Translations under genes and position numbers: made by a program
In this document: one piece after another, positions 19,644-39,398 of the stretch
Layout of the letters: the number at the start of each line of letters is the position of its first letter
Numbering within the stretch: the stretch's first letter is position 1
Notes under the pieces: model-generated
Databases searched by the model: none
What the model saw: the letters and a program-made list of their open reading frames with translations, nothing else
What the model was told of the DNA's origin: nothing
Source: Desulfobacterales bacterium
GTDB lineage: Bacteria > Desulfobacterota > Desulfobacteria > Desulfobacterales > JAFDDL01
NCBI GenBank assembly: GCA_034003325.1
Contig: JAVEYW010000016.1
Coordinates: 1-64,000 of the forward strand
Direction of reading: 5' to 3'
DNA: 64,000 nucleotides

Positions 19644-20681
19644 ATGTTTTCTGTTTTATCTACGATGTTGGTCAGGGTAGCGCTCGTAACGGCAGTTTTA
19701 TTCGCCATTCCATTGAGTCTTTCAGCACAAACTGCCCGGGAACAAAATAAAATTCCTTATGAAACCGGATTTTACTATACGGTGCAAAAGGGAGATACGC
19801 TTTGGGGCATTTCAAAAAAGTTCTTTAAAACCCCGTTTCAGTGGCCGGATCTGTGGCAAAAAAACGACCAGCTGCCGAATCCGCACTGGATTTATCCCGG
19901 CCAAACATTGCGGCTGTATCTAAAAGACGGCGTGGTGCAATTCGAAGAGGTGGAAAACATCCCCCAAGATGCGCCTGCCGCCGAACCGGTTCTGCCGCCC
20001 TCGTTTGAGTTTGTGCAGATCGATCAGGTCGGATTTATTCGAAAAACACCTGTTGAGCCGCACGGCACGCTGTTCAAATCAAAAGATGATAAAGAAATGA
20101 TCAGCATGCAGGACATGGTTTACATTCGGCCTGAAAATTCACACGAACTGCTTCCAGGGAAACAGTACATCGTTTACAGAACAATTCCCCCGCTTGAAGA
20201 TAAAAAATCGCTCGAAACAATCGGATATCAGCATTATATTGTCGGCATCGCCGAAATTACCGGACAGGAACCCGGCCTTGCCGTGGGACGCATCTTGAAA
20301 GCATTCCGAGATATCCAGATCGGAGATTTATTGATTCCCTATGAGCCGAAATCGACCACCATCGCTCTAAAAGAGGCCGTACAGGGCCTTGAAGGGCGGC
20401 TCATTGCAACAGAGGAACACAATGAACTCATCGGACATAATACATTGGGGTTCATCGATAAAGGCGCAGAGGACGGCGTCGAAGCAGGCCAATCCTATGA
20501 ACTCTTTTATCGTGAAAAAGCGAGGCACACGATTCAGGGGGAGACGCCTGAAATCCTGCCAGCCATTGAACTCGGCGATTTTCTGGTTCTTCACACCGAG
20601 GATACCACCGCCACTGTACTGATTACCCGATCCGACCGCGACATTAAACCCGGTGAGACTTTTCGGGCATCGACTCGTTAA
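19644..20681 (+). CDS. secreted LysM-domain protein
   Basis: A 345-residue protein with a signal peptide (about 1-29, ending SLSAQT) and one LysM domain at about residues 43-93 (YTVQKGDTLWGISKKFF ... IYPGQTLRLY). LysM binds peptidoglycan glycan chains. The rest has no named domain, but its repeating turns resemble other periplasmic LysM proteins of Desulfobacterota. It is monocistronic: it has its own promoter and a terminator shared with the convergent dsbA-like gene. Confidence 0.8.
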   Translation: MFSVLSTMLVRVALVTAVLFAIPLSLSAQTAREQNKIPYETGFYYTVQKGDTLWGISKKFFKTPFQWPDLWQKNDQLPNPHWIYPGQTLRLYLKDGVVQFEEVENIPQDAPAAEPVLPPSFEFVQIDQVGFIRKTPVEPHGTLFKSKDDKEMISMQDMVYIRPENSHELLPGKQYIVYRTIPPLEDKKSLETIGYQHYIVGIAEITGQEPGLAVGRILKAFRDIQIGDLLIPYEPKSTTIALKEAVQGLEGRLIATEEHNELIGHNTLGFIDKGAEDGVEAGQSYELFYREKARHTIQGETPEILPAIELGDFLVLHTEDTTATVLITRSDRDIKPGETFRASTR

Positions 20682-20750: not shown

Positions 20751-20799
20751 AAATAGAAAAAGACGCATGGCCGCCCGGTGTCCGTGCCTTTTTCTATTT
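20751..20799. terminator. bidirectional terminator between LysM and DsbA-like genes
   Basis: AAATAGAAAAAG (20751-20762) pairs with CTTTTTCTATTT, with an inner GCATGG/CCGTGC stem. The A- and T-rich arms allow termination from both sides. The right arm touches the stop codon of the DsbA-like gene. Confidence 0.8.
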
Positions 20800-21668
20800 T
20801 AATGTGCTGTTTTTTTCAATTCAGCATCAATCAGTTTTTGGAATCCGTCAAGGGTCCGTTCCGTAAGCTGCCTTCCATTGATAAATACTTTCGGGACCCC
20901 CTTGACATCGGCCTGAAGACCGTCATTAATATCCGCCTGAATTCGCCGGAACAAGTCAGGGGCTTTCATCTTTTCTTCAAACTCGGCTCTGTCGAAGCCC
21001 AGATCCGCGGCAATAGTTAATATCTTCTCATCGCTGAGACTGTCATATTCATCGAACAGGCGATCATGAAATTCCCAGAATTCCCCAGTGTTGGCCGCCA
21101 CCTCGGAAGCCGCCGCCGCAACGAGGGCAAATTTGTGCATCTTTAGCGGGAAATGTTTGAAGACCAATTTCACCTTTCCCTTATTTTGCGCAAGTACCTG
21201 TTTGAGCAACGGCGCCATTCGTGCACAATAGGGGCATTGAAATTCCGCAAATAAAACAATAGTCACCGGCGCATTCTCCTCTCCCCGCACGGGGGAGCCC
21301 TCGATATTGATGAGCTGAATAAACTCAAGCGCCAGAACTTTCACCGTATTGTTTTTTCTATCGGTCAACAACAGCAGATGTTCCTCGGGACCTTCTTGAA
21401 TTCGATTCACATTGCTTCCGACCACGATCGTATCATTAAGAACACCCTGTGATGAGTAAACGAACAGCTCACCGGCCTCCGTCAGCACAAAAATCCATTT
21501 CCCACTCCTGGAAACAGCCACATCCACTGGCGAATGCGTCAATTCCAATGTCTTTTGCACGCGCCATTCAACTTCAGCCCAGCCTAAAGAAAACAGACCC
21601 GACACGCTCAAAAAAATAAAAAAGCAGATAACGCTACGCACTTTTCCCCCATTTTTGCGCTTATTCAC
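20799..21668 (-). CDS. DsbA-family thiol oxidoreductase linked to PilY1
   Basis: A 289-residue exported protein with an N-terminal signal/anchor (VICFFIFLSVSGLFSLGWA). The first 110 residues of the mature part look like beta-propeller-type repeats (VDVAVSRSGKWIFVLTEAGELFVYS). From about residue 120 there is a DsbA/thioredoxin-fold domain with active site FAEFQCPYC and a cis-Pro region GVPKVFING. It overlaps the end of the PilY1 gene by 8 bp, so the two are cotranscribed. A role in forming the disulfides of the Cys-rich PilY1 is inferred. Confidence 0.8.
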   Translation of the reverse strand: MNKRKNGGKVRSVICFFIFLSVSGLFSLGWAEVEWRVQKTLELTHSPVDVAVSRSGKWIFVLTEAGELFVYSSQGVLNDTIVVGSNVNRIQEGPEEHLLLLTDRKNNTVKVLALEFIQLINIEGSPVRGEENAPVTIVLFAEFQCPYCARMAPLLKQVLAQNKGKVKLVFKHFPLKMHKFALVAAAASEVAANTGEFWEFHDRLFDEYDSLSDEKILTIAADLGFDRAEFEEKMKAPDLFRRIQADINDGLQADVKGVPKVFINGRQLTERTLDGFQKLIDAELKKTAH

Positions 21669-24600
21669 TTCGCCAACTCATACGACCCGATTTCATCGTC
21701 TTGATGGGCAGGGTCGGCCGATTTATTTCAACAATGGCTCCGGTACTGGTCTGAACAAAAGCCGTATCCCCCGATTGTCTACCGACATGCAAGTTGGGTG
21801 TAGTGGCAAGTCCTCGACCAATATCAAGCTTATTGATCACGTTCGGCGGATCATCGCCAGACAAACCGATCCCCTCACTAAACACCGGCTGGTACCAGGC
21901 CGTGCCGCTCTGATAATAAAGGGCATAAAGATAGGCCTGACCCTCTGGCCGGCAAACATCATCAAATGGCTGATAAGTGGTAAAGGTCAACAGCCCACCC
22001 AAAAGCGTGGCTTGACCCAAATTCCGCTCCCGAGGCGCTGAGAAGTTTAAATACCAGCCGTCCGTGCCTGAATAGCCTTTGAACACTTTGTTCTCGTCAT
22101 AAACACATCCCGTGCCGGCAATATAATCAACCATATCCTTAAAGGTCGTCACACCGGCGGGCAAACACCCGACGCCGCCCCCTTCGCAGGAAAGAAGCGC
22201 AGCTTCCGGTTTTTCTGCCTGTTGCACCAATATCTGGTCGATCCGCAACAATTTTCGAGTACCTGGTGCGTCCAGGTCGCTCGGTGGAATCAGTGCATTC
22301 GCATTTGTAACCGGGCGCCAGGTAAAATTACCGTTGCAATCCATCGGCTCCTTGATGCCGTAATAGCTCTCCTGGCCGTTGCTGCTGACATCCGTCTTAT
22401 CATCTTTGTGCATGAATCGGCCCGTACCGAAATAAACCCAAAAACTATCGCCATCCCATCCAACGCTGGGCGCAGCGGAGATCGGCCGGCCGGGCTCAAA
22501 CATCACACCGGGAGGGCCTAATACGAAAGTAGATTTCCCCCACTCATGCGGGGCGGTCATTCGGCTATCCGCGTTAGTGACCCAGCGATAAAGTTTTCCA
22601 TCCCAACTGCCGCCCTTAGCCGCCCATTTGCCTTCAATGGTGCCGAAATAGAGCGCATCAACCCGGTAATCGGGCACCAGGTCGTAATCCACGCTGATAA
22701 TGTCCGATACCATGCCATCTCCAGAGGTCGCTAACACATGGCTGCCGGCCGCTGAACCGGCATCAGGGGGAACCGCCGGAATCCGAAACACCTTTGATCC
22801 GGTAGTCAACTTGTCCAGTGGAAACACGCCGATCCGCGGTTTCTGGTTACTTGTTCCTTCACGTCCCCAGTTTAAACCGCCGTCGGAATCCACATCCGTC
22901 GGGCCGCTGCCCACGACCAGATACCATTTGGTTACGTTTCCTTCCTTCATGGGAACAACCGCGGGAACAGCCACGGTATGACCCAGTTCCGCACTCGTGG
23001 CGGGATCAAAAGTCAATTCACCCAAAAGGACCGGTGGTATTTCAGGATTGGTTATGTCCATCACCACATAGGAAGAAACAAACTGACGGCTATCGGTGAT
23101 ATCACTGGTTGAGACCTTGCCACCTCCAATCCGCATGCCCGCAATCAGGATGGTTCCCCACCCTTCGGGATGGTCCGCGTCAGGGGTAAAAATTCGGACA
23201 TCAAAGATTCGCGGCTTTAAATCCACGAAATATTTATGAACATAATTTTTTTCGGTAAGGCAACGCAAATGGGGAAGCAAATTATACGGCGCATACGCCC
23301 AGAGCTCCGCTCCCAGCAAAGGGGCGTTCGCAACCGCCGCACATCCCGGACTCAGGCAGAACGCTTGGGTGCTCTCATCATAAAACCCGCCGTTTACCGC
23401 ATGAAGCAACCCGTCGTTTCCACCAAAATAAATAACATTTCGCCGATGTTGATATTTTTCATAAAATTTTGCGTACCCCTCATCCCGATAGAGTAAATGG
23501 TAATTATCCATGGGACGGCCCACAGCCGTCGGCGTGGAATGAATAATATCCACCAAACGCCATGTGATATTCGCCGGTGACCCGGTAATGTTAAAATTGG
23601 GCGGGGTGGGAACCTGGCGCTTTCGAACCGTGTCGTCAGCCAAATTGTCTTTGCCTCGTATCCAACTGACAATGGCATCCACTCCGGCATCCGTGGCCAT
23701 GCCAAAATCCAGCGGTACCGCCGGCCGGTTGGGTGCCCCGGCCGCCGGGACCACCGACTGCGCAGCCCAATCCATGGCTGGTACAAAGGGGAGCATCTCA
23801 TTGGCGTCCGCAGCGCCGTTATTGTTCAGATCGTTCCAGGTAAAGATATAGCGCTTTTTTTCATCCGATATATAGACGGCACGGTTGGCATCAATATCCG
23901 CATCACCAATACCGGCCAGCCATTCCGCCGCGGACCACAGATAGTTGACATCATGCAGACTCTTGACCGTTCCGTTGCAAACACCGGCCGCATTCACCTC
24001 TCCATAGCAGGCCATGGTAGCGCCATTGGCCTCGTCAAAAAAGAAGACCACCCGCTGATCCGCGTCGGTCAACGCCTTGTCCCCATCATCTTCATACAGC
24101 CTACCATAGGCATCCACCAACAGTGCATGAACCTCACCGGTCCAAGTCACTTCCGGCTTTCCACTCGGATCATCCATGTGAGGCCAGAAAATAGCCTGGT
24201 AAACGGCCCCTTCGCCCCCGCGCGTCGCCGCGATGACCGAAGCGGCGGAACCGGCAGCAGCTCTTTTCATGACCGTCCTGAGCACGCTCTCGATTTGCTG
24301 CTTAAGCTGTGCCGGATCAGCGGCAATAAGCGGCGCCTCACTACCGCCGTTAAACGCCGCATTTTCGAGCAATGTTTTTGGGTTGCATTCTCCAACCCCT
24401 TCATCACGAGGCGTTCCGGCCACCACCAAAAACGTCAGAATATTCTGATACAATTCAGACTCGGCATAGGGACTGCCGGAAAAAATATTCCCTTTCCAGG
24501 CATAATGGGTCAAATCATCTAGATAGGAGCTGCCGTATAAATCACCGCATCCGGCCGAATTATCAACATCAGGTTCGTCTTTTACGCCGGCGGCACCGGC

Positions 24601-26493
24601 AAGGTTCACCATAATTGGATTCAAATCAGCCGTGGAAGCGCCGTCCGTAATAAGAAGCAGGTTGTTTTTTTCGCAATATTCGGAGATAGGCGCCGCATCA
24701 ACGGGAAAATCAGTTGGGTTTAACCGAAGATCCGCCCGTTGCGTATAATAGCCGATGGCATTAAAAACCGCCTCGGCCAGGGGCGTCCAGGACTTAGCCT
24801 TAATATTATTGATATTGCTCTTCAATCCGGTGAGATGATCGGCCCCGGCGCCGATGGGTTGAACCAGATACGTGCCGTCCTTATTGTCCGGATCATCGCA
24901 GTCATAGGTCACGTAGGGGAAGGGTTTAGCACACTCACTCTTTGACCCGTCATAATTAAATGCCATTGCGCCGATTTTAATTTCCTGACCATATATTTCA
25001 AGCAGACCGGATGGAACGGCATCCGTAGCGATACGCGCTTGAAAGGTCGCCAGTGGGGTCCCGAGTTGACCGGCCGCCCCCTGGCTCATGAGCATGGCGG
25101 GCAGGTTCCATGTTTCACCGGAGGACATCTGTAAATCGCTGGGATCCACCACCTGAGGAACTTCAATATACCCGCAAAACCGCTCACGAGCTGCAGTGAT
25201 ACACTCATCCAGATTTGTCCAATCCCTTCCCATCGCCACGATTTCGGCATCGCTCTTCCATCCGCCGACCGCGCCGCCACCGTCACACTCCTGGACAACG
25301 ACCCAGTCTTCTTCTTTCTTGCATTCACTTTTTCCGCTGTTCCAGTTCGTGCAATATTCAATAACGCCGCCGTTGCATCGCTCCCTGGGTTGAAGCGCCC
25401 TATCCACGCAGGCGACATCGTGACATACGCCGGGAGGATTCCAGCATTCACCGATAAACCCTTCCAGTGCCGGTGTCGTACCGTTGCCATAGCAGACATA
25501 GGCCGCGTTGTCCTTTGTGATGGTCCGTGGGTCGTCCCGGGTATACACATCCGCGCACCAATTTTCAAAATTAAACCCCTGAGCCCCCCCTCCGGGCCAA
25601 TCCCCCTGCTTGTTCAGATACCAGCAGTCGTGCAAGGAATTAATCAATGCCTGCTTGTCATGTTCACCTGGCTGTTGATACGGATTTTGAGCATCGTATT
25701 CCATGCAGTCTATGATGCTTTGCTTGACCTGCCCGAAACCAGTCGGATCCCCCATCATTAAATCAATAGCCGCCTGGCATTTTTCGGGCACAAAACCGTT
25801 CTGAGTAATCTGAAAAATGTCGATCAGCGTCGTATCAACGCCGTCCGTGTCGTCATAGTCGGTTCGAATACCCAACACCAGCTTGTAGGCGGTGGCCCCA
25901 CTCGTAAGACCAACTTCTTTAATGAAACGATTTCCGGAGCAACCCCGGCCTTCTGATTCCAGTTCGCCGGCAGTATATTTTCCACCCGTGAGAATCTGTT
26001 TTTGAATGTCGAACTTGGAGGCCGTGGCCCAATTGAGAAAGTTGCCCGTGGCTTTGAAAGCGTCCACCTGAATAATGGTGTCCGCGCCGACCACTTCGGT
26101 TCTGGTAACCACGCACACATAGGCATTGCTGTAAGCAGTCGTTCCGGCCGCGCCTGCGCATGCGCCAGCAACAGTCGTTTCAAATCTATTAGAACCGCTG
26201 TTGTGCGCATACCAAGAACTTCCGTCAAAATACCCCGAATAAATCACGTTATGATCATAGGTATCATCAAAGCAGACCGTGTCATTCTTCTGATACGCCA
26301 TATCATACATACTGGCGGAGTTATCGATGATCAACAGCAGGTTCGGGTCCACTCCGGCCGCGAGAAAGGGAGGATCCGCCGTATCCGTGCAATCACACGT
26401 ATCCGCAATCGCCGCAGCCGGCAAACATGCCATAACCGCCGCCAGCACAATCATTCGAACGCAAATTGATGTGTATTTTTTAAAATAGAACAT
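21661..26493 (-). CDS. pilY1: PilY1-type pilus tip protein, Cys-rich, with intact VWA MIDAS
   Basis: A 1610-residue secreted protein. A signal peptide ends near residue 30 (AAAIA). A von Willebrand factor A domain begins LLLIIDNSASM, with DxSxS at residues 57-61. The C-terminal 700 residues form the PilY1 beta-propeller, with YFGGNDGLLHAVNGG and the conserved VYFGTGRFMHKDDKTD. An EF-hand-like loop (DLNNNGAADANE) lies between them. I count about 40 cysteines, most in residues 200-480, many spaced CxxC or CxxxxC, pointing to extensive disulfide bonding. PilY1 sits at the type IV pilus tip and acts in adhesion and mechanosensing. It is the fifth gene of minor-pilin cassette 1. Confidence 0.9.
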   Translation of the reverse strand: MFYFKKYTSICVRMIVLAAVMACLPAAAIADTCDCTDTADPPFLAAGVDPNLLLIIDNSASMYDMAYQKNDTVCFDDTYDHNVIYSGYFDGSSWYAHNSGSNRFETTVAGACAGAAGTTAYSNAYVCVVTRTEVVGADTIIQVDAFKATGNFLNWATASKFDIQKQILTGGKYTAGELESEGRGCSGNRFIKEVGLTSGATAYKLVLGIRTDYDDTDGVDTTLIDIFQITQNGFVPEKCQAAIDLMMGDPTGFGQVKQSIIDCMEYDAQNPYQQPGEHDKQALINSLHDCWYLNKQGDWPGGGAQGFNFENWCADVYTRDDPRTITKDNAAYVCYGNGTTPALEGFIGECWNPPGVCHDVACVDRALQPRERCNGGVIEYCTNWNSGKSECKKEEDWVVVQECDGGGAVGGWKSDAEIVAMGRDWTNLDECITAARERFCGYIEVPQVVDPSDLQMSSGETWNLPAMLMSQGAAGQLGTPLATFQARIATDAVPSGLLEIYGQEIKIGAMAFNYDGSKSECAKPFPYVTYDCDDPDNKDGTYLVQPIGAGADHLTGLKSNINNIKAKSWTPLAEAVFNAIGYYTQRADLRLNPTDFPVDAAPISEYCEKNNLLLITDGASTADLNPIMVNLAGAAGVKDEPDVDNSAGCGDLYGSSYLDDLTHYAWKGNIFSGSPYAESELYQNILTFLVVAGTPRDEGVGECNPKTLLENAAFNGGSEAPLIAADPAQLKQQIESVLRTVMKRAAAGSAASVIAATRGGEGAVYQAIFWPHMDDPSGKPEVTWTGEVHALLVDAYGRLYEDDGDKALTDADQRVVFFFDEANGATMACYGEVNAAGVCNGTVKSLHDVNYLWSAAEWLAGIGDADIDANRAVYISDEKKRYIFTWNDLNNNGAADANEMLPFVPAMDWAAQSVVPAAGAPNRPAVPLDFGMATDAGVDAIVSWIRGKDNLADDTVRKRQVPTPPNFNITGSPANITWRLVDIIHSTPTAVGRPMDNYHLLYRDEGYAKFYEKYQHRRNVIYFGGNDGLLHAVNGGFYDESTQAFCLSPGCAAVANAPLLGAELWAYAPYNLLPHLRCLTEKNYVHKYFVDLKPRIFDVRIFTPDADHPEGWGTILIAGMRIGGGKVSTSDITDSRQFVSSYVVMDITNPEIPPVLLGELTFDPATSAELGHTVAVPAVVPMKEGNVTKWYLVVGSGPTDVDSDGGLNWGREGTSNQKPRIGVFPLDKLTTGSKVFRIPAVPPDAGSAAGSHVLATSGDGMVSDIISVDYDLVPDYRVDALYFGTIEGKWAAKGGSWDGKLYRWVTNADSRMTAPHEWGKSTFVLGPPGVMFEPGRPISAAPSVGWDGDSFWVYFGTGRFMHKDDKTDVSSNGQESYYGIKEPMDCNGNFTWRPVTNANALIPPSDLDAPGTRKLLRIDQILVQQAEKPEAALLSCEGGGVGCLPAGVTTFKDMVDYIAGTGCVYDENKVFKGYSGTDGWYLNFSAPRERNLGQATLLGGLLTFTTYQPFDDVCRPEGQAYLYALYYQSGTAWYQPVFSEGIGLSGDDPPNVINKLDIGRGLATTPNLHVGRQSGDTAFVQTSTGAIVEINRPTLPIKTMKSGRMSWRSE

Positions 26494-26535: not shown

Positions 26536-27180
26536 TCAGGGAATGCAAATCCCTTCAGTTCCGGTAACATGTCGATATTGTGTCCAAACAATGCTCTCGC
26601 TTCCGGCATTGCCCACTCGCTGAGTCGCAATATCAAAAATCAGGTGCGTTCCGCCGGAGGCGGATGCTTTTCCCTTTCCTTCATATCCAGCAGGCATTTC
26701 CAGCGCGCTGCCCAAAGCGAACCGGGCATTTCCACCAATGGTAAAGTTGGTATGCGGCTCTCCGGCAGCATAACCAACGGGCAGATGAAAATCCCGGGGC
26801 CTTTCTCCCACGCCGCCATCTCCAGGCATTTCCACCGAATCATCGCTATTTTGCCAGAAAGCAAGTGTGTTCACGGAAATTAATCCCCCGCGCGTCGCGT
26901 TGGTAAACCCGGTGGCGCATGCAATATTTTGCTCCAACAGTTCGGCGGCAAGTTCCGTTGCGCCATCCGCGGCATAAAAGGTTTCCTGGTGAAGGCGGTC
27001 GTTTCCGGCAATCTTGCTCTCCGTCGAAGAGGATTGAACGAGAATTTGGCTTAAAAGAGAAAGCACCGCAAGGATAACAATGGCAACGATCAGCGCGGAA
27101 CCGGTCTCATTATGTTGAAGAAACCCCTGGCTATCGGGATTGCATCGCAAATTAAAAACTATCCGCTTTATAGTAGACAT
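26536..27180 (-). CDS. pilX: PilX-like minor pilus protein (cassette 1)
   Basis: A 214-residue protein with the PilX N-terminal membrane helix (GSALIVAIVILAVLSLL) followed by STESKIAGNDRLHQETFYAADGATE, the conserved PilX stretch. It lacks the GFTLIE prepilin motif. PilX-type proteins help prime pilus assembly with PilV, PilW, FimT and PilY1. It overlaps the PilV gene by 29 bp and is 42 bp from PilY1. AGGAG sits eight bases before the start. Confidence 0.85.
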   Translation of the reverse strand: MSTIKRIVFNLRCNPDSQGFLQHNETGSALIVAIVILAVLSLLSQILVQSSSTESKIAGNDRLHQETFYAADGATELAAELLEQNIACATGFTNATRGGLISVNTLAFWQNSDDSVEMPGDGGVGERPRDFHLPVGYAAGEPHTNFTIGGNARFALGSALEMPAGYEGKGKASASGGTHLIFDIATQRVGNAGSESIVWTQYRHVTGTEGICIP

Positions 27181-27559
27181 GCGCTACACTCCTATTTTCC
27201 CCGTTTTCCGTCCATGTCGTGGTGATGGTAACCGTCTTCACATTTGGAATGGGGGCGCCTGCCGCAGACACATTCCAGGTTACGGTATAGTTGCCGTTCA
27301 CAAGGGTCGTCGTCGTACCGGGCATCAGCACGGCGTCGTTATAGGCCAGCGCGAGGAGCTTCTCCTGCCGGTCCGCGTTTTCGACGGCAGCGGTTGTCAT
27401 GCGACGGGCGGCGAAATTGATTTTTGTGGTTGACAGGTTAATACTTAACAGGCCCAAGATGCCCACGGCCAATATAAAAATCGCGATCATGGTTTCAATC
27501 AACGTAAAGCCGCCGGCGTTCCCCATGGTTCGTTCTATAATATTCCGTTTTTCAGCCAT
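27152..27559 (-). CDS. pilV: PilV-like prepilin (cassette 1)
   Basis: A 135-residue prepilin with cleavage motif GGFTLIETMIAIF and a membrane helix, then the short PilV-type C-terminal part ending in TTTWTENGENRSVAHVYY. The start at 27559 (MAEKRN) has AGGAG about 13 bases upstream; ATG codons at 27586 and 27526 are also in frame. It is processed by PilD and incorporated as a minor pilin. Confidence 0.8.
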   Translation of the reverse strand: MAEKRNIIERTMGNAGGFTLIETMIAIFILAVGILGLLSINLSTTKINFAARRMTTAAVENADRQEKLLALAYNDAVLMPGTTTTLVNGNYTVTWNVSAAGAPIPNVKTVTITTTWTENGENRSVAHVYYKADSF

Positions 27560-27611
27560 TATGCTGCGCCAACTCCTTCCGGGCACGATAAGATGCCCTA
27601 AACAAGCATTT

Positions 27612-28436
27612 TCATTCCAATCCCATGTTGCGGCATTTGACCTCGACCGTCATGGGAATACGACGGAAATTATCATTCTGGACCGGCAAAATCACCTCCG
27701 GCGCGCCGGGTCGTTGATTCGAATATGACTGGGTGTCCTGATAGCTGATCCCAAAAGCGCTTGCACCCGCGCCGGTACGGGCAACAAGGGAGATTTGAAC
27801 CGAACGGATAGTGGATGTATCCGCTACAGGGGTACCGATCACCGCACCATTGCCGTCAAGGTAAACAAAATTGAGTGCATCGATACTTGAGGCCATTGGT
27901 TGCCCGTTTCTTAATAGATGGCAAGCAGCACCGGTATTGTTCTCGGTGACAAGCCCGTCATTGAGGCCATTCCCGTTCCCGTCATTACTCAAATTATAGG
28001 TAATCTGCTCGTTGGGATCGGCCGTACTTTCGTTATACCATTCCGCCTCATCCGGCTCGTCGATCAGCCCGTTGACGTTATTATCAACACCGTCCCCGCC
28101 CTCATCCACCACACCGTCTTTATCGTTATCCACGCCATCACTCAGGCCACCCGTAAAGTCCATTGAGAAGCTAATGGTGTGCGCATCCGCCACAGTAATG
28201 TCGGCCCCGGCCTTTCCGGTGGGGTCAAGACCGGCCAGCTTGAGCTCCCGGGTCATCAGATACGTCGCCGCCCGAAGGTTTTGCTGCATATCGACCATCT
28301 CACGCTGGGTATAGTAAGAGCGCAGCTGTGCCTGGTAAGCCAACGTAATTCCCGCTACGACGATGCCGAACACGGCAATTGAGATGAGCAGTTCAACGAT
28401 TGTAAAGCCGTTACTGCCTCTGTTTAATCGAAACAT
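27612..28436 (-). CDS. pilW: PilW-like prepilin with calcium-type loops (cassette 1)
   Basis: A 274-residue prepilin with NGFTIVELLISI, a membrane helix and TYLMTRELKLAGLDP, typical of PilW. Around residues 117-145 there are Asp-rich motifs DNDKDGVVDEGGDG and DNNVNGLIDEPDE resembling thrombospondin type-3 calcium loops. The start at 28436 is chosen for the GGAAAG upstream; the frame stays open into repeat copy D, which encodes no conserved protein. Confidence 0.8.
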   Translation of the reverse strand: MFRLNRGSNGFTIVELLISIAVFGIVVAGITLAYQAQLRSYYTQREMVDMQQNLRAATYLMTRELKLAGLDPTGKAGADITVADAHTISFSMDFTGGLSDGVDNDKDGVVDEGGDGVDNNVNGLIDEPDEAEWYNESTADPNEQITYNLSNDGNGNGLNDGLVTENNTGAACHLLRNGQPMASSIDALNFVYLDGNGAVIGTPVADTSTIRSVQISLVARTGAGASAFGISYQDTQSYSNQRPGAPEVILPVQNDNFRRIPMTVEVKCRNMGLE

Positions 28437-28453
28437 ATGTCGCACCACTTTCC

Positions 28454-28563
28454 TGACCCGGCAAAGCCGGAAGCTTGGAAGCTTGAAGTCTGTAAACCAA
28501 AAGACCGTCACGACCTTCTACATCCATACACGCTAAAACGTGTATGTGTTTGATAAAGGGTTC
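28454..28563 (+). repeat. dispersed repeat, copy D
   Basis: Reads TGACCCGGCAAAGCCGG, then AAGCTTGGAAGCTTGAAG, a hairpin CATACACG-CTAAAA-CGTGTATG, and GATAAAGGGTTC. It fills the gap between the FimT-like and PilW-like genes inside a pilin operon, so it is transcribed in antisense orientation with the operon. Its loop differs from copies A and B while the stem is kept. Confidence 0.75.
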
Positions 28564-29101
28564 ATTGTATACTCGTGTGACCGCTTAATAACAAAACAAC
28601 ATTACGCACCGCGCCACCCTGTATGTCAGCCAATGTCACCATGCCACCGGTAAGCATATTGGCTGCATCATTAGGAAATCCTCTCCGGTCGAACCGGAAA
28701 GCCGGGTTTCCCGAAAAATTTGCCGCCGTCATGTTCACATTCTTCGGCAGTTGGCCTAAAGCCAATTGCCGTTCATTGCCGTCGCACACCCAATTCAGCG
28801 CGTTATCGAGAATGCCGTCCGAATTCGCATCGACGCTGCCTGCGCCATCATCCACAAATACGGTGTAGGAATTGTTGGCGGTATTAAATGCCACCACGAT
28901 ATCCGTATTTTCCTTAACCGCTGCCGTTCTGGCTTGGCGCATCACTGCCATTATATCCCTAGCGCCCCCCCCCAATTGGTGCCGAACGGTCATATTGTTA
29001 AAACTAGGAACCGCAACCGCGATCAGCACGCCGAAGATACTGATAACAACCATCAGCTCAATGAGCGTAAATGCATAGCAGTTCTTTACTTTATCAGTCA
29101 T
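28562..29101 (-). CDS. GspH/FimT-like pseudopilin (cassette 1)
   Basis: A 179-residue prepilin whose cleavage site reads YAFTLIELMVVI, so Ala rather than Gly sits at position -1. The fold region includes the typical FDRRGFPND. A probable calcium loop (DDGAGSVDANSDGILDN) lies at about 95-112. It is the first gene of cassette 1. AAAGGA precedes the start. Confidence 0.8.
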   Translation of the reverse strand: MTDKVKNCYAFTLIELMVVISIFGVLIAVAVPSFNNMTVRHQLGGGARDIMAVMRQARTAAVKENTDIVVAFNTANNSYTVFVDDGAGSVDANSDGILDNALNWVCDGNERQLALGQLPKNVNMTAANFSGNPAFRFDRRGFPNDAANMLTGGMVTLADIQGGAVRNVVLLLSGHTSIQ

Positions 29102-29947: not shown

Positions 29948-30601
29948 CTAAACGTCGGCCGTGGTGAGTCCAACCCTGATAGCGTATTTGGTCAATTCCG
30001 CCACGCTGTGCAGACCGAGCTTTTCCATAATGCACTTACGGCGGGCCTCGACGGTTTTGACGCTTACGTTCAAGGCTTCGGCGATTCGACGGGTGGGGTG
30101 TCCCTCCGCGATCATCTGCAGGACTTCACGTTCCTTAACGGTGAGGTCTTTTGTCGAGGGGGTCATCTCGGGAGGAACGTGGGGAATACAATCACTGACA
30201 ATGACGCCAGTCACCTTGGGGCTCAAATATATCTGATTGTCTTCTGCAACCCGAATGGCCTGAATCAACTCTTTAAAGGCGCCTTCTTTCAAAATAAACC
30301 CCTTGGCACCGGCTTTGAGCATGCCGAGAACATAGTTCGTGTCCGAATGCATGGACAGGGCGATCACCTTGACCTCCGGAACCGCCTCGATACACAGAAT
30401 GGTGGCATCCATGCCATTTAAATCGGGCATGCCGATGTCCATGATGATAACATCCGGCCGATGCCGGCGGGCCAGCAATACGGCTTCCCGGCCCGTTTCT
30501 GCTTCCGCCACCACTTCCATATACGGCTGGCCCTTGATGAGGCTGCGCAGGCCTTCCCTGACAATTTCGTGATCATCGGCTAAAAGAATGCGTAGTCTCA
30601 T
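29948..30601 (-). CDS. NarL/LuxR-family response regulator
   Basis: A 217-residue two-component regulator. The receiver has Asp9/Asp10, the phospho-acceptor Asp55 in IIMDIGMPDL and a conserved Lys at about 105. A LuxR-type helix-turn-helix occupies about 150-215 (LTVKEREVLQMIAEGHPTRRIAEALNVS). It overlaps the kinase gene by 4 bp (ATGA), so the pair is a cognate system. Its position between two pilin cassettes suggests control of pilus genes, but no direct evidence exists in the sequence. Confidence 0.92.
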   Translation of the reverse strand: MRLRILLADDHEIVREGLRSLIKGQPYMEVVAEAETGREAVLLARRHRPDVIIMDIGMPDLNGMDATILCIEAVPEVKVIALSMHSDTNYVLGMLKAGAKGFILKEGAFKELIQAIRVAEDNQIYLSPKVTGVIVSDCIPHVPPEMTPSTKDLTVKEREVLQMIAEGHPTRRIAEALNVSVKTVEARRKCIMEKLGLHSVAELTKYAIRVGLTTADV

Positions 30602-32388
30602 AACGATGGGCTCCTTTGCGCATCAGGGGGAATATATTTCAATGGCACCGTAAGGCACACCCGGGTACCCTTTCCCGGCGCCGAGTCAAGCTCAAACCGA
30701 CCGCCGAAATGGTGTATTCGTTCTTTGATGCTGAACAAGCCGAAACCGAGTTCAACATTCACGGCTTCCGGATCGAATCCCACGCCATTGTCCTGAATCA
30801 TAACCTTCACGGTATCCTCCTCGGCCATCATGGTGATTTGGGCCTCACGGCTGCGGGCATGCTTGATAATATTAAACAGCAATTCGCGTGCGGCCTGAAA
30901 AAGCATCACCCGCAATGCCGTTTCCACGGGAATATCAGAATTTACGACATCAAATTTGATTTCAAGGCCGTACTGTCGGCCGAATTTTTCACTCAGCCAT
31001 TTGAGTGCTGCCGCCAGACCGAATTCGTAAAGAATCGGCGGACTGAGATCAAAGGTCAGGGTTCGGGTGCTCTGAATCGCTGTTTCGATATATTTGCCGA
31101 TTTGCTCCACATGGGTCAAAGCTCCGGTAGCGGCGGGCAGGGTGGAGGCCAGCTCATCAAGCTTTATTTTCGAAATGGCAAGCGGCTGACCGATGTAATC
31201 GTGAAGATCAATGGCTATCTTGCGTCGTTCCCGCTCTTCTGTGAGCAGCAATTCGGATGATAGATGGCGAAGCCTGCGATGGTAATCGGTCAATTTTTTT
31301 TCGTAACGCTGACGCTCTTCAATTTCACCCATCAGCCCTTTTTGAATCGAATGTTGCCGGGCAACCAGGCGGTCAAATTCCCTGGACAGCACGCCGATCT
31401 CGTCTTTACGCGAACTGTTGTGTGTCAAGGTCAGGTCGTCGGTGTCGCGAATGGCAACGGCATGGCGTGTCAACGATGCAATCGGCCCAATGACCGTCAT
31501 TTTCAACAGCCATAGCAGAACCAGCACGAGAATGATCGATACAAGAATATCAGATACGGCGCCGTAACGAATGCCGGCAAGCCCTTCTGCCGTAAAATCC
31601 CTTGACAGGGTCGCTCGAAGCAACAGCGCGGGGACGCCGTCTATATCCGGAATCGTGGTATAAGCCTGAAGCGTGCCGGTCTTTTCTTGAATAAACATGG
31701 GATGTGAGGCATTCATCCGTGTCATCGCCAGCCGGTCATCATCGGTCATCCACGCATCGCCCAATTTCATATACGTGTGATCGACGCGGGTCTGAGAGAC
31801 CAGGCGTTTTACCAACGCGGGCGATAGCAATTTTCCCATAATCAGCGTACCGACGGCCGGACCCCGGTTCTCGCTGGTAATGACCGGTCGCGAAGAAACC
31901 AGCATCGGGCCTTTATCCGTCAAAAAAAGACCGCTCACACCACCGATCGCCTGCGCTTGCTTGAGCAACGAATGGGTTATTGGCAAGCCGGGCCGGTCCA
32001 ACGGGCGGATCAATATGGGGGTCGCCGAATCGACCGCCACGGCCTTGCCCCAAACCAGATTTCCTTTTAAATCATAATAATGAATCAGATTCAGGTCGTT
32101 ATCTAAAAACGTCTCTTGTACCAGATTGGACTTGATGTAATCGGCGTTACGGTCCAGCAAAAACGCGTAAGAATCATCCCAGGCTGCCCAATCGTTGGTC
32201 AGAATATCCAGGAATTTAATTGAACTCTCCAACGTAGCGATGCAACGAGCCAGCTCCTTTTTGGCAAATGTTTGTTCCAGCGCCAAATAATTGGGATATA
32301 TGACCCGCCGGTAAATGGTGTAATCCGAAACCGCCAGCAGCAGTGACAAAACCAGCAGACTTCCGGCTATTTTCCATTTTAACGTCAT
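30598..32388 (-). CDS. CHASE4-HAMP sensor histidine kinase (HisKA_3 type)
   Basis: A 596-residue membrane kinase. A first membrane segment at about residues 7-24 is followed by an extracytoplasmic CHASE4 domain (NDWAAWDDSYAFLLDR). After a second membrane segment near 280-300 comes a HAMP domain, then HisKA_3 with the phospho-acceptor His near 395 in ERRKIAIDLHDYIGQ. The HATPase has DNGVGFDPEAV and GFGLFSIKERIHHFGG. The ligand is unknown. It partners the NarL-type regulator downstream and lies 22 bp after the GspE/PilB gene. Confidence 0.9.
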   Translation of the reverse strand: MTLKWKIAGSLLVLSLLLAVSDYTIYRRVIYPNYLALEQTFAKKELARCIATLESSIKFLDILTNDWAAWDDSYAFLLDRNADYIKSNLVQETFLDNDLNLIHYYDLKGNLVWGKAVAVDSATPILIRPLDRPGLPITHSLLKQAQAIGGVSGLFLTDKGPMLVSSRPVITSENRGPAVGTLIMGKLLSPALVKRLVSQTRVDHTYMKLGDAWMTDDDRLAMTRMNASHPMFIQEKTGTLQAYTTIPDIDGVPALLLRATLSRDFTAEGLAGIRYGAVSDILVSIILVLVLLWLLKMTVIGPIASLTRHAVAIRDTDDLTLTHNSSRKDEIGVLSREFDRLVARQHSIQKGLMGEIEERQRYEKKLTDYHRRLRHLSSELLLTEERERRKIAIDLHDYIGQPLAISKIKLDELASTLPAATGALTHVEQIGKYIETAIQSTRTLTFDLSPPILYEFGLAAALKWLSEKFGRQYGLEIKFDVVNSDIPVETALRVMLFQAARELLFNIIKHARSREAQITMMAEEDTVKVMIQDNGVGFDPEAVNVELGFGLFSIKERIHHFGGRFELDSAPGKGTRVCLTVPLKYIPPDAQRSPSL

Positions 32389-32410
32389 TTACACAACCCT
32401 TGCATTCTGC

Positions 32411-34495: not shown

Positions 34496-37400
34496 TTAAT
34501 CAAACCAGTCGACCATTCGACTCTTAAACGGAAAGGCCGGATCAACGTCAGCTTCAATAATCTCGCCGGTACTCATCTGAAGGAATGCCTTTCCGCCTTT
34601 TTCCCGCCCGATATGAATACCGCCGATAGGAGGTGGAGCGCCTTCGCCAAGCGCCTTGGTTTCTTCCATAATTTCTCCCGCATTGGGCGGAAGAAGCGGT
34701 TTGTAGAAAGCAGTGCCGGTTTCGAAATAAAGACCGTAGAGAATGCTGGTGCCGCCAAAATGGCAGACATCATCACTCGGCGTGTATGCTGGCACAAATA
34801 CAGCCCCTCCCAAAACGGAAAACTTGCTGATGCAGCGTTCTGACGGCAGGGGGGGGACATCCTCGGATATCTCAAGGTTGCGGCTCCATCCATCAAGCCA
34901 GTCATTATCCACATCGACCGTGCCGTCGGGCAAAATCCCGTTGTTCTGGCGCACCAACTTCAATAAATCATCCCAGTTCCCGATTTCGCCCCATGCGCCG
35001 CCCCCGTATGCCTCTATTGTCCGGTCTTTCTTCACCCGGTAGAGAGAGGCGTTGAGAAGCTTTTCCGCTCCGATACCCTGGGCCGCTCCGGCAACATATC
35101 CGTCAAAGCTATACTCCCGGGCATTGTGGAAAAGCGGATCTTTCATGCCAAAGAGATGTTGGGGGGCCGCATCCGTCTTGTCCGCTTCAGAAACATACCG
35201 CCCGGTGCCAAAATAAACCCAGACATTATCATCCATATCAAGGCTCAAAGCCATGGGAGCCGTAATCGGTCCCAGTTTCATCATGGGGCCCGCCGGAAGA
35301 GGTTTAAACTCTTCGGCAAGCAGATGATGATGCCAGACGGTCGGGTCATTGGTCACTTCCCACCAGTCCGGATCTCTATCACCATTGGCATTAACCCCGT
35401 CCCAATTCTCATAGGTATCGATGGTCCAGGCCTTTCCAGTCCAGGCTGAATGCGGGTCAGCCGGATCCGCCTTGATCGATTCCCCCAGATAAATGGCATT
35501 GACCTCAAAGTTAAGCCCCTTGTCCAGAGCCACCGGCGAGTTAACAACGGAATTGTCGCTCAAGGTAAACAGATAATCGTTGCCGCCGGCGCCGGTCGGA
35601 TCGCCGGTTTTAAGATCCACCACATAAACCCGACCCGGCTGATCGCTGATTCCCTGATAGGCCAAATCCCCTTGGGGGCCGGAGCCGAAAACGGCCAACC
35701 ACCGCTCGGGCCTGCCCGTGGGTACCCGAACATCATTTTGCTTAAAGTGGTCACCCCCGATTTTGATGATCGAAGGCACGGACCGGCTCATCCCCAGTCC
35801 TTCGTAGGTTCTCTCCCACACAAGCTTCGGGCTTGTCGGGTTGGTAATATCCAACAGCGTATAACTCGGCTTAAATGTTTCGGTGTTTCCATCCGCGTCC
35901 GCATCGACCGGAATGTCCTTTCCGCCCATATTGAGTCCGAGCAAAAGAAAGGTCCCCCATTCATTCTGGCCCACACCCGCGATCTTGGCATCAAAAATCC
36001 GAGGCGTCGAATCCACATAATAACTGTGATAGTAGTCCGGATCCGAAAGCCATTTCAAGTGCGGCAGAACTGCCCGCGGAATATAGCTCCATAACTCATC
36101 TCCGATGGTGAACCCTTGGGCACCGTACTTTTCCACCGGTTCCTCAAAGGTATTGGTGCCCCGGTTAAACCGCCATGACGTAAAGGCGTGAAGCATCCCG
36201 TCGTTACCACCCGCGTATACCACCGTTTGACGGTTCTTATGTGCTTCAACATAAGCGCCGTAAGACCGGTCGGAATAAATGATATGATACTGCTCGACAG
36301 GTTTGCTGACCGAAACCGGCGTTGAGTAGACAATATCTCCCAGTTTCCATTGCTTCCCGTCGATGGCGCGGTTCCGAAGTCCGGGAGCATCGACGCCTCG
36401 AACGTAGTTGATCAGCCTTCGGGCCCGAAAATCCAGGTCCGGGCCTAACAGGTTGATATTTGCGTCCGGGAAGAGAGCGATGTCCGCATTGCTGACCCCG
36501 AGCATACTCTTGATTGAATCAAGATTACCGTCGGCAAAGGGTATCAGGCTACCGTTCAAAGCGGAAGTCAGAATATTGCGATCCGAACTGTCCGTATCCG
36601 CCAAAACCCTACCGGCTTCCCAAATGGGAAGGATATCGTCCATCTCAACCGTAAAATATCCGTCTGCATCTAAATCGGGATATTGCTGCGCAACAGTCAC
36701 ATTATAGCGTCGAACCTTGCTTTCTCCATTGATCAATTTAAAGACGAGAACCTTATCTTCCGACAAGTCAAGCCGTTGATTACCGTTGGTGTCTTCCCGT
36801 ATCAGTCCCTGGGAATCAACCCACAATGACTGAAGATATCCCATCCAGCGAACCTCATCGGTGCCCGTAGCGGTCACGGGCCTGAAATAGGCTTGAATCA
36901 GGGTGCCTTCCCCTTCATTGGTGGTAGCCAGTACCGATGCAGAGGTTCCGGAAGCGGATTTAGCCGCAATTTGTGCAAACGATGCATTGAGCTGCGCTTC
37001 CAACCGAAGCGGATTGGTTACATAAAAATAGTTATCCGGAATGCCGTCGTGATTGGTGTCCCACTCTGTTTCAAGATCCGGTATATCATTGTCGTTCTGA
37101 TCCTTAAACCCGCCATATTTGCCGGCATAAAAGAGTGGATCTTTCAGTAAGGTGGCAGCCGGAGCATTGCCGGTGGTAAAGTTTCTGGTCGTGCTGTTCG
37201 GCAGAAACGTGTGGTCTTCCCAGGCACGATCCGCCACCCCCTGGTTCGGTCCAATCCCCGGAGGGGTATCCAAATAAAAGTCCTTATCCTCGTTGTTGGG
37301 CTGACTTGCGTTTTTTATTTCCATGTAAACGCCGTCATCGTCCGTTCCCGAAATGATATAGCCGAAATGCTGTTTGGTACTGCCGCCATTCACATTGGCG

Positions 37401-39382
37401 CTTTCTATGTGAATATCCAAGCTGCCATCCGGTTGTTTCGTATATTCATAAGTGATGATCGCATCCATATCAAAGTCGGACCCCTGCTCGGCATGCTCAT
37501 AGGATACTCGAAACTTTCCGTGATCAGCACTGAGTTCTTCCACATAAAAGTCCACCATGGCGCATGTCGGCTGAAAATCTTTGACACACTCTCCGGAGTC
37601 GGGACGACACGGTTCAACACCCCCGCCACTGGCCGAGTAAATTGATTTGGCAAGCGGCACCAGCGTGACGATCTTCCCATTGGCCATGGGGATTTCTATC
37701 CTGGGCAAAGGGGACGCAAGACCTACCGCATAAGTGTCGACCTTTTGATCTCCTTCCACGATATTTAGATCCGTAATCTGGCCGTAATGAGCGACAGAGG
37801 CGGCATAATAGCCGCCCGCTTTTGTCGGCTCTTCCGGACATAAGCCCCGAATGCTGGACAAGCCGGCTACGGTTTTTCCGGAACACGCGGTGTCAAAGCT
37901 GCCGCCACTCTGACCGATGTAATATTTGTTCCCGCTGATGCCCTCGTTGGCAGAGATGGGGGCAAGGCCGGAAGCCACATTCAACGCGCCGAAATTCTCG
38001 ACAAAACCATCATTGAAATTGCCGTCAACCCCGGGCAACTGGTTCGTATCATAAGAGGGATTGATATCACTGATAACCAGCATCACCGGTTTGGCGCAAG
38101 CCGGATATGTGCCGTAAGGGTCTTGCCACGCTTCCAAAGGAAGATTCAGCCCTCTGTCGTTTCCATCCGAAACCAAAGTGGAAAACCGATTCGTTTTTTC
38201 AGCACCGGCGAAATATCGAAGACTTTCATACATCATCTCCGCAACGGGATTTCCCCACATGTAATTTTCGCCTTCATTAATGGGACGGCTGTATATGGTT
38301 TGATCCCAATAATGGGTGCCATGATTAAATCCAATGATGCGAAAATTATCGATGGTTTTAACAATTCCCTTAATCGATGCATCCGATTTGTATTTAAACT
38401 GGCCGGTATCGGGATTGATTTCATCGGAAATCGGCCCGATATTCTTTCTCAGAGCCCCGCCTGACAGGTGATTCCCATAAGAGGCTGTTAAAAGACCAAA
38501 ATACATTCGTTCAGATTCCCCATACCGTTGCAATAGACCGGTAGGCTTATAATTGCCATCCGGGTACTGCTTGCAATTTCCTTCCGGACTGGCTGAATCG
38601 CATACCAACACACGCACTTCATATTGATGCTCGGGCGCGCCTACCAATGTATCGCCCATAATACCGGTTCCGCTCTCAGCCGACACCCATGTCCAAATAC
38701 GCTTGTCGCTGTTCAGTTTTACCCGCAATAAGGGGGCGTAAGTTGCAGCACCCGGAGCAACAAGCGAACCGCTGGCGAAAAGATGCCGTTTGCCCGCGGC
38801 CGGTAGACTAAAGGGCGTATATTTACTGATATCGTACCCATCCGTTGCAATATCTAAATATTCTTTGCCCCAGCAATGGGCATCATTGGGGATATAGGCT
38901 CTTTCCAGCACGGTTCGATCCGCTGTGTCGGTAGAACGATACCCGCCGTAAAGAACTTTTCTGACGGTATCAATACGGGACATGGTCAAATAATTTAAAT
39001 AATCCCCACTCCAATAGGCACCGGCAGGTTTTTCTTTTCCGTTTATGGTGGGACCGACAGCTTCAAACCGTTTATTGCCGGCGACGTATTCATAATACTT
39101 GTAACTGTCAAAATAGCCATAATACTCGATGGCCGGGTTATAGCGTATGTCCAACTGGCCGTCTCCATCAAGGTCCGACGCATCGTTATATGCTTCATAA
39201 TAAAGTTTATGGTCACGCCCCATAACAAGCATGACCAAGGGAGGAATGCTTTTGGCCCCCACAATGGGCACCGCCTGGTATTGAATCGGCGTAACCGCGT
39301 GAGCCGATTGTGACCCCGCGAACATCAAAGAGGCGATCAGGATCGCTCTTACCATCTGAAATGCCTTATTATGGTCTTTCAT
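34496..39382 (-). CDS. second PilY1-type protein, degenerate MIDAS
   Basis: A 1628-residue secreted PilY1 homologue with a signal peptide ending near SQSAHA (residue 29). The N-terminal part begins PPLVMLVMGRDHKLYY, where a VWA MIDAS (DxSxS) would be expected; that motif is not present. An Asp-rich loop (DASDLDGDGQLDIR) follows directly. The C-terminal propeller has VYAGGNDGMLHAFTS and VYFGTGRYVSEADKTD. It has about 13 cysteines, far fewer than the first PilY1. The start at 39382 (MKDHNK) has AGGTGAG five bases upstream. It ends cassette 2. Confidence 0.88.
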   Translation of the reverse strand: MKDHNKAFQMVRAILIASLMFAGSQSAHAVTPIQYQAVPIVGAKSIPPLVMLVMGRDHKLYYEAYNDASDLDGDGQLDIRYNPAIEYYGYFDSYKYYEYVAGNKRFEAVGPTINGKEKPAGAYWSGDYLNYLTMSRIDTVRKVLYGGYRSTDTADRTVLERAYIPNDAHCWGKEYLDIATDGYDISKYTPFSLPAAGKRHLFASGSLVAPGAATYAPLLRVKLNSDKRIWTWVSAESGTGIMGDTLVGAPEHQYEVRVLVCDSASPEGNCKQYPDGNYKPTGLLQRYGESERMYFGLLTASYGNHLSGGALRKNIGPISDEINPDTGQFKYKSDASIKGIVKTIDNFRIIGFNHGTHYWDQTIYSRPINEGENYMWGNPVAEMMYESLRYFAGAEKTNRFSTLVSDGNDRGLNLPLEAWQDPYGTYPACAKPVMLVISDINPSYDTNQLPGVDGNFNDGFVENFGALNVASGLAPISANEGISGNKYYIGQSGGSFDTACSGKTVAGLSSIRGLCPEEPTKAGGYYAASVAHYGQITDLNIVEGDQKVDTYAVGLASPLPRIEIPMANGKIVTLVPLAKSIYSASGGGVEPCRPDSGECVKDFQPTCAMVDFYVEELSADHGKFRVSYEHAEQGSDFDMDAIITYEYTKQPDGSLDIHIESANVNGGSTKQHFGYIISGTDDDGVYMEIKNASQPNNEDKDFYLDTPPGIGPNQGVADRAWEDHTFLPNSTTRNFTTGNAPAATLLKDPLFYAGKYGGFKDQNDNDIPDLETEWDTNHDGIPDNYFYVTNPLRLEAQLNASFAQIAAKSASGTSASVLATTNEGEGTLIQAYFRPVTATGTDEVRWMGYLQSLWVDSQGLIREDTNGNQRLDLSEDKVLVFKLINGESKVRRYNVTVAQQYPDLDADGYFTVEMDDILPIWEAGRVLADTDSSDRNILTSALNGSLIPFADGNLDSIKSMLGVSNADIALFPDANINLLGPDLDFRARRLINYVRGVDAPGLRNRAIDGKQWKLGDIVYSTPVSVSKPVEQYHIIYSDRSYGAYVEAHKNRQTVVYAGGNDGMLHAFTSWRFNRGTNTFEEPVEKYGAQGFTIGDELWSYIPRAVLPHLKWLSDPDYYHSYYVDSTPRIFDAKIAGVGQNEWGTFLLLGLNMGGKDIPVDADADGNTETFKPSYTLLDITNPTSPKLVWERTYEGLGMSRSVPSIIKIGGDHFKQNDVRVPTGRPERWLAVFGSGPQGDLAYQGISDQPGRVYVVDLKTGDPTGAGGNDYLFTLSDNSVVNSPVALDKGLNFEVNAIYLGESIKADPADPHSAWTGKAWTIDTYENWDGVNANGDRDPDWWEVTNDPTVWHHHLLAEEFKPLPAGPMMKLGPITAPMALSLDMDDNVWVYFGTGRYVSEADKTDAAPQHLFGMKDPLFHNAREYSFDGYVAGAAQGIGAEKLLNASLYRVKKDRTIEAYGGGAWGEIGNWDDLLKLVRQNNGILPDGTVDVDNDWLDGWSRNLEISEDVPPLPSERCISKFSVLGGAVFVPAYTPSDDVCHFGGTSILYGLYFETGTAFYKPLLPPNAGEIMEETKALGEGAPPPIGGIHIGREKGGKAFLQMSTGEIIEADVDPAFPFKSRMVDWFD

Positions 39383-39398
39383 CGTCTCACCTTTCATT

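Follow-up and report, generated by a model that had tools for sequence, protein, structure and literature searches.

A DsbA-like enzyme from a selenocysteine/cysteine-switching family, encoded behind a cysteine-rich PilY1 in a pilus gene cluster of Desulfobacterales

Among the closest described systems is BcfH, a DsbA-family enzyme reportedly encoded within the bcf fimbrial operon of Salmonella; SrgA is a further case of such an enzyme in a fimbrial operon. As regards PilY1, the periplasmic protein TfcP, encoded beside pilY1 in Myxococcus xanthus, stabilises PilY1.1 (PMC8833165), some myxobacterial clades of Cys-rich vWA PilY1 proteins reach median counts of up to 41 cysteines with many predicted disulfides (PMC13190605), and a cysteine of the vWA domain of PilY1 matters for surface signalling in Pseudomonas aeruginosa (PMC8806160). 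Bacterial DsbA-like selenoproteins with a UxxC motif are also already known (PMC1794560, PMC13188914). A literature search with partial coverage returned neither a DsbA-family gene tied to a PilY1 operon nor a type IV pilus (T4P) operon with a disulfide enzyme of its own; this silence is weak evidence of novelty.

The locus described here lies in a window of 64,000 nucleotides (the whole stretch of DNA that was analysed) from a Desulfobacterales bacterium, in which a gene for a DsbA-family enzyme follows the gene for a Cys-rich PilY1 (PilY1a). The reading we favour, with moderate confidence, is that a periplasmic Thioredoxin_4 enzyme, from a family that switches between selenocysteine (Sec) and Cys, has been captured by a minor-pilin/PilY1 operon and acts on PilY1a without being an obligate private chaperone of PilY1. 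The relevant features are:

19644..20681, plus strand: LysM protein, its gene convergent with that of DsbA; genome G216 also has it beside DsbA, and G025 has it in the same region
20799..21668, minus strand: secreted disulfide enzyme of the DsbA/Thioredoxin_4 family, with CPYC and the cis-Pro loop GVP; start at GTG 21668 or GTG 21641
21225..21236, minus strand: CPYC active site of the enzyme, residues 145-148; first codon TGA (Sec) in most order-level homologs
21315..21578, minus strand: N-terminal domain of the enzyme, residues ~31-118, found in the whole family and read as two YVTN-type beta-propeller blades
21661..26493, minus strand: PilY1a, Cys-rich (37) vWA-type PilY1 of 1610 aa, with a DxSxS motif around residue 57 and the PilY1 propeller at its C-terminus
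26536..27180, minus strand: PilX-like minor pilin, in the same cluster as PilY1a
27152..27586, minus strand: PilV-like minor pilin (N_methyl)
27612..28511, minus strand: PilW-like minor pilin (N_methyl)
28562..29101, minus strand: FimU/GspH-like minor pilin
34496..39397, minus strand: PilY1b, a second PilY1 with 11 Cys and no DsbA neighbour

PilY1a matches the T4P_PilY1 propeller (PF05567; 41.4 bits vs 28.1), has pilX, pilV, pilW and fimU upstream, and is with PilY1b one of the only two PilY1 matches in its genome. The preliminary description of this DNA had given about 40 cysteines for the first PilY1 and about 13 for the second, and had placed the DsbA gene beside the first only. The placement is correct and the contrast is real, although the exact counts are 37 (35 past the signal peptide) and 11: full-length PilY1 proteins of the same order (29 sequences) show a median count of 11; 26 of them have no more than 19 cysteines, and only three go beyond that number. 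The cysteines of PilY1a are concentrated in the vWA-type head, which contains 24 of them in the first 600 residues, 14 being located between residues 239 and 440. About 25 are kept in most orthologs, and several pairs of alignment columns (373/403, 1046/1051 and 829/839) are gained or lost jointly, a pattern that would be expected of disulfide partners. The highest content seen is that of the PilY1a of G080 (L233), with 66 Cys or 3.7 per 100 aa; the DsbA linked to it is sister to the window copy and likewise a Cys form with Val-cisPro. As for the wider surroundings, positions 26536-47216 of the window hold two minor-pilin/PilY1 clusters in succession, between which (29948-34219) lie genes for a GspE ATPase of the MshEN type, a CHASE4 histidine kinase and a LuxR-type response regulator.

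The enzyme had been described as a secreted thiol oxidoreductase with a CPYC active site, and this is borne out by its Pfam matches (Thioredoxin_4, PF13462, 105.4 bits vs a gathering score of 23.2; DSBA, 71 bits), by CPYC and the cis-Pro loop, by the inserted thioredoxin fold and by a signal peptide assigned by eye. An 8-bp overlap with the PilY1a gene (21661-21668), also claimed earlier, exists for the longest ORF, which starts at the first GTG (21668), but it is unproven, because an in-frame GTG at 21641 with GGGGGAAAA directly upstream would leave a gap of 19 nt; a start there would give a signal peptide of 22 residues (judged by eye) and is the more likely one in view of its SD sequence. 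With either the overlap of 8 nt or the gap of 19 nt, the gene lies behind PilY1a on the same strand, a pilus-operon location of the BcfH/SrgA type. Scans of the locus for promoters and terminators performed no better than on shuffled sequences and are uninformative on the transcript. In an AlphaFold model built with 23 sequences (mean pLDDT 92), residues 116-287 form a domain like those of BdbD, ScsC and BcfH (Z 20-24; 23.8 for BdbD), preceded by seven strands at residues 47-113 with pLDDT mostly above 90. The profile of residues 28-116 matches the YVTN propeller protein 1l0q, and we read this part as two YVTN-type propeller blades, a reading that rests on the sequence profile since the structural comparison hardly tested the N-terminal part. 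The beta-rich N-terminus had been regarded as unusual and as a possible recogniser of the PilY1 client. It is real but not unusual: every full-length homolog carries it, with or without PilY1, which makes it a family-wide rather than a PilY1-specific feature and argues against the proposed recognition.

The enzyme belongs to a family of selenoproteins whose catalytic position can be occupied by either Sec or Cys. Order-level homologs often have an in-frame TGA in place of the codon for the first active-site Cys, with intact coding sequence on either side; among 42 copies at this level, the window copy included, TGA (UPYC and variants) is found in 24 and a Cys codon in 18. The 51 nt around the active site are more stably folded in the TGA forms, with a mean of -17.7 kcal/mol vs -12.0 kcal/mol in the Cys forms (p=3e-6, uncorrected for kinship); the downstream hairpin of the TGA forms is typically CTCGAGCAGGTGCTCGAG. 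SelB scored above the cut-off in 12 of the 14 genomes tested, and tRNA-Sec is present in the genome of the window. TGA as a mark of pseudogenes was considered and rejected, because the same catalytic codon is affected in 24 homologs with intact flanks, hairpins follow it, and SelB is present in most of the genomes tested. According to the tree, the distribution of Sec and Cys requires at least 15 changes. The window copy itself is a Cys form (TGC) without the in-frame UGA of a selenoprotein, and on the tree it clusters with G080's Cys copy. It scores 78.3 bits with NF041057, the NCBIfam model of the Rcas_1661 (seleno)lipoprotein, against a cut-off of 190, and therefore belongs to another subfamily. 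Plasmid records searched for the enzyme gave only partial archaeal matches.

The adjacency of PilY1a and DsbA, with order and strand kept, recurs in five families of the order (G000, which is the genome of the window, G025, G033, G080 and G129), whose enzymes are about 43-54% identical. The gap between the two genes is about 170 nt in G025, about 0.4 kb in G033, about 130 nt in G080 and about 30 nt in G129, and the next gene after the pair varies (LysM in G000, GspE in G129, DUF4124 in G025 and G080). Such recurrence in five related families is not due to chance. Descent from an ancestral PilY1a-DsbA pair is the simplest reading, because linkage requires three changes on the tree and most linked copies group together. 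In four genomes (G053, G050, G228 and G235) the linkage is lost. G235 nevertheless retains a decayed DsbA, with frameshifts, stops and no CxxC, directly behind PilY1a (L236:8676-9330); its PilY1a gene contains one in-frame TAG, and an intact Sec copy of the enzyme is found elsewhere in the genome. In G233, from the same genus as G129, the enzyme lies in a pilus cluster, preceded by a DUF4124 gene and by a PilY1 that is not PilY1a, and in G216 it adjoins LysM with no PilY1 there.

With a threshold of E<=1e-35, the enzyme is carried by 56 of the 241 genomes of the class draw. It is present in 8 of the 13 genomes with a PilY1a ortholog vs 48 of the 228 others (Fisher p=0.003, uncorrected for kinship). 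A genome was assigned to the ortholog group for a high score or an agreeing pattern of cysteines, and the group was fixed, from scores and inspection, once the data had been seen. The preliminary description had suggested a dedicated folding pair, expected the DsbA variant to co-occur with Cys-rich PilY1 elsewhere, and held that a DsbA widespread without such a PilY1 would speak against it. The conserved pair and the enrichment agree with the suggestion, but the co-occurrence is not strict: a PilY1a ortholog is missing from 48 of the 56 enzyme-bearing genomes, which is largely the contrary outcome that had been named, linkage was lost in four genomes, and Cys-rich PilY1a occurs without the enzyme in two fairly complete genomes, G155 (31 Cys, in a genome of one contig) and G001 (with 36 Cys). 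The enzyme is also absent from G248, G168 and G234, whose genomes are less complete or fragmentary. In a separate scan of genome contigs, which demanded a Cys codon and is thus valid for the context of Cys forms only, none of 24 homologs had a PilY1 neighbour within flanks of up to 10 kb. A PilY1 match beside the enzyme in Geothermobacter (L071) was discarded as a Cys-rich MopE-like protein; the DsbA homolog of G. hydrogeniphilus lies directly behind this secreted protein of 373 aa, which combines 26 Cys with MopE-like repeats for metal binding (L071:8610-9731). Another homolog, in G013, is convergent with a lipoprotein-like ORF of 647 aa with 38 Cys (L053:8274-10217).

In the scenario we propose, a general periplasmic thiol-disulfide enzyme from a DsbA family widespread in Desulfobacterota, with two N-terminal propeller blades and a catalytic residue that switches between Sec and Cys, would have been captured in the window lineage by the minor-pilin/PilY1 operon, with which it is probably co-transcribed. 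It would most likely form or correct disulfides among the 35 cysteines of mature PilY1a before the tip complex is assembled, PilY1a, large and Cys-rich, being its probable local client. The domains, the conserved pairing, the kept cysteines and the exchange of Sec and Cys at the active-site codon are observed directly; co-transcription, the role of PilY1a as client and the direction of the reaction (oxidase or isomerase) are inferred. Capture is supported by the persistence of the pair while the next gene changes and by the decayed DsbA that still lies behind PilY1a in G235. The pair could also be inherited synteny, as the linked copies mostly form one subclade. On this ground it is conceivable, though clearly the less likely explanation, that the enzyme is a general housekeeping catalyst with many secreted clients and no special tie to PilY1a. 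The 48 genomes with the enzyme and without PilY1a, the four unlinked cases and the different PilY1 in G233 are consistent with such a role; that the window enzyme is the sole strong Thioredoxin_4 match in its own genome fits a housekeeping and a local role alike. A housekeeping role alone, however, would account poorly for a pair that outlasts changes of the next gene, for co-occurrence above background, and for the long branches of the linked copies in G000 and G080, which are paired with the most Cys-rich PilY1a proteins (37 and 66 Cys). It is tempting, if speculative, to go beyond simple capture and consider a DsbA that can use Sec or Cys interchangeably and bears a propeller of two blades, recruited to the T4P tip operons of one order and specialised for Cys-rich vWA PilY1, most of all in the G000/G080 lineage, where it might determine the disulfide status of a tip adhesin with a putative role in force sensing.

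The candidates for re-oxidation of the enzyme bear on the direction of its reaction. DsbB was not found in the genome of the window and is lacking in 12 of the 13 genomes examined; the former contains one VKOR (C2:198739), which could re-oxidise the enzyme. In G025, G129 and G033, all with the linked enzyme, neither DsbB nor VKOR was recognised, so oxidase activity is not assured and there is room for an isomerase or reductase, which would maintain PilY1a's vWA cysteines in a switchable form suited to sensing force or surfaces. Such a function would suit the scarcity of DsbB, CPYC combined with T/V-cisPro, relatives similar to BcfH, ScsC and DsbG, Sec at the attacking position in relatives and the signalling role of the vWA cysteine in P. 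aeruginosa (PMC8806160), but the VKOR of the window genome speaks against it and we think it improbable. Least credible of all is a PilY1a folding partner in the strict sense with the blades as its client-recognition domain, for which the conserved pairing in five families and the precedent of TfcP as an adjacent-gene helper of PilY1.1 (PMC8833165, PMC13190605) can be cited, but which, with blades in all homologs irrespective of PilY1, an enzyme common without PilY1a and PilY1a found without the enzyme, is largely refuted as a rule for the family.

The best structural matches to residues 116-287 of the window enzyme are BdbD (3eu3) and ScsC (6nen), with Z of 21-24, which lack its N-terminal propeller blades. 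To our knowledge, neither has a pilus linkage. BcfH (7jve) resembles the window enzyme in the catalytic domain (Z 20.3), but it serves chaperone-usher fimbriae and has a different N-terminal part, whereas the enzyme described here belongs to a T4P tip operon and carries the two putative blades; we know of no Sec-containing relatives of BcfH. With the DsbA-like UxxC selenoproteins and NF041057 the family of the window enzyme shares a thioredoxin fold with UxxC and the interchange of Sec and Cys; the window copy differs from them in having Cys, and the available portions of PMC1794560 and PMC13188914 describe no pilus linkage for these selenoproteins. TfcP is a cytochrome c that works via calcium binding (PMC8833165), unlike a disulfide enzyme, and the Cys-rich PilY1 clades of myxobacteria were defined without a linked DsbA, the words "Dsb" and "thioredoxin" being absent from PMC13190605. 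Since the state of the disulfides in PilY1's vWA domain has been proposed to matter for surface sensing, the locus provides a natural pair for testing, and the wider family, with its many Sec/Cys swaps, a test bed for the use of selenium by periplasmic DsbA. Seen beside these systems, the locus is real and conserved, and it represents a variation on something already known, not a novel type of system.
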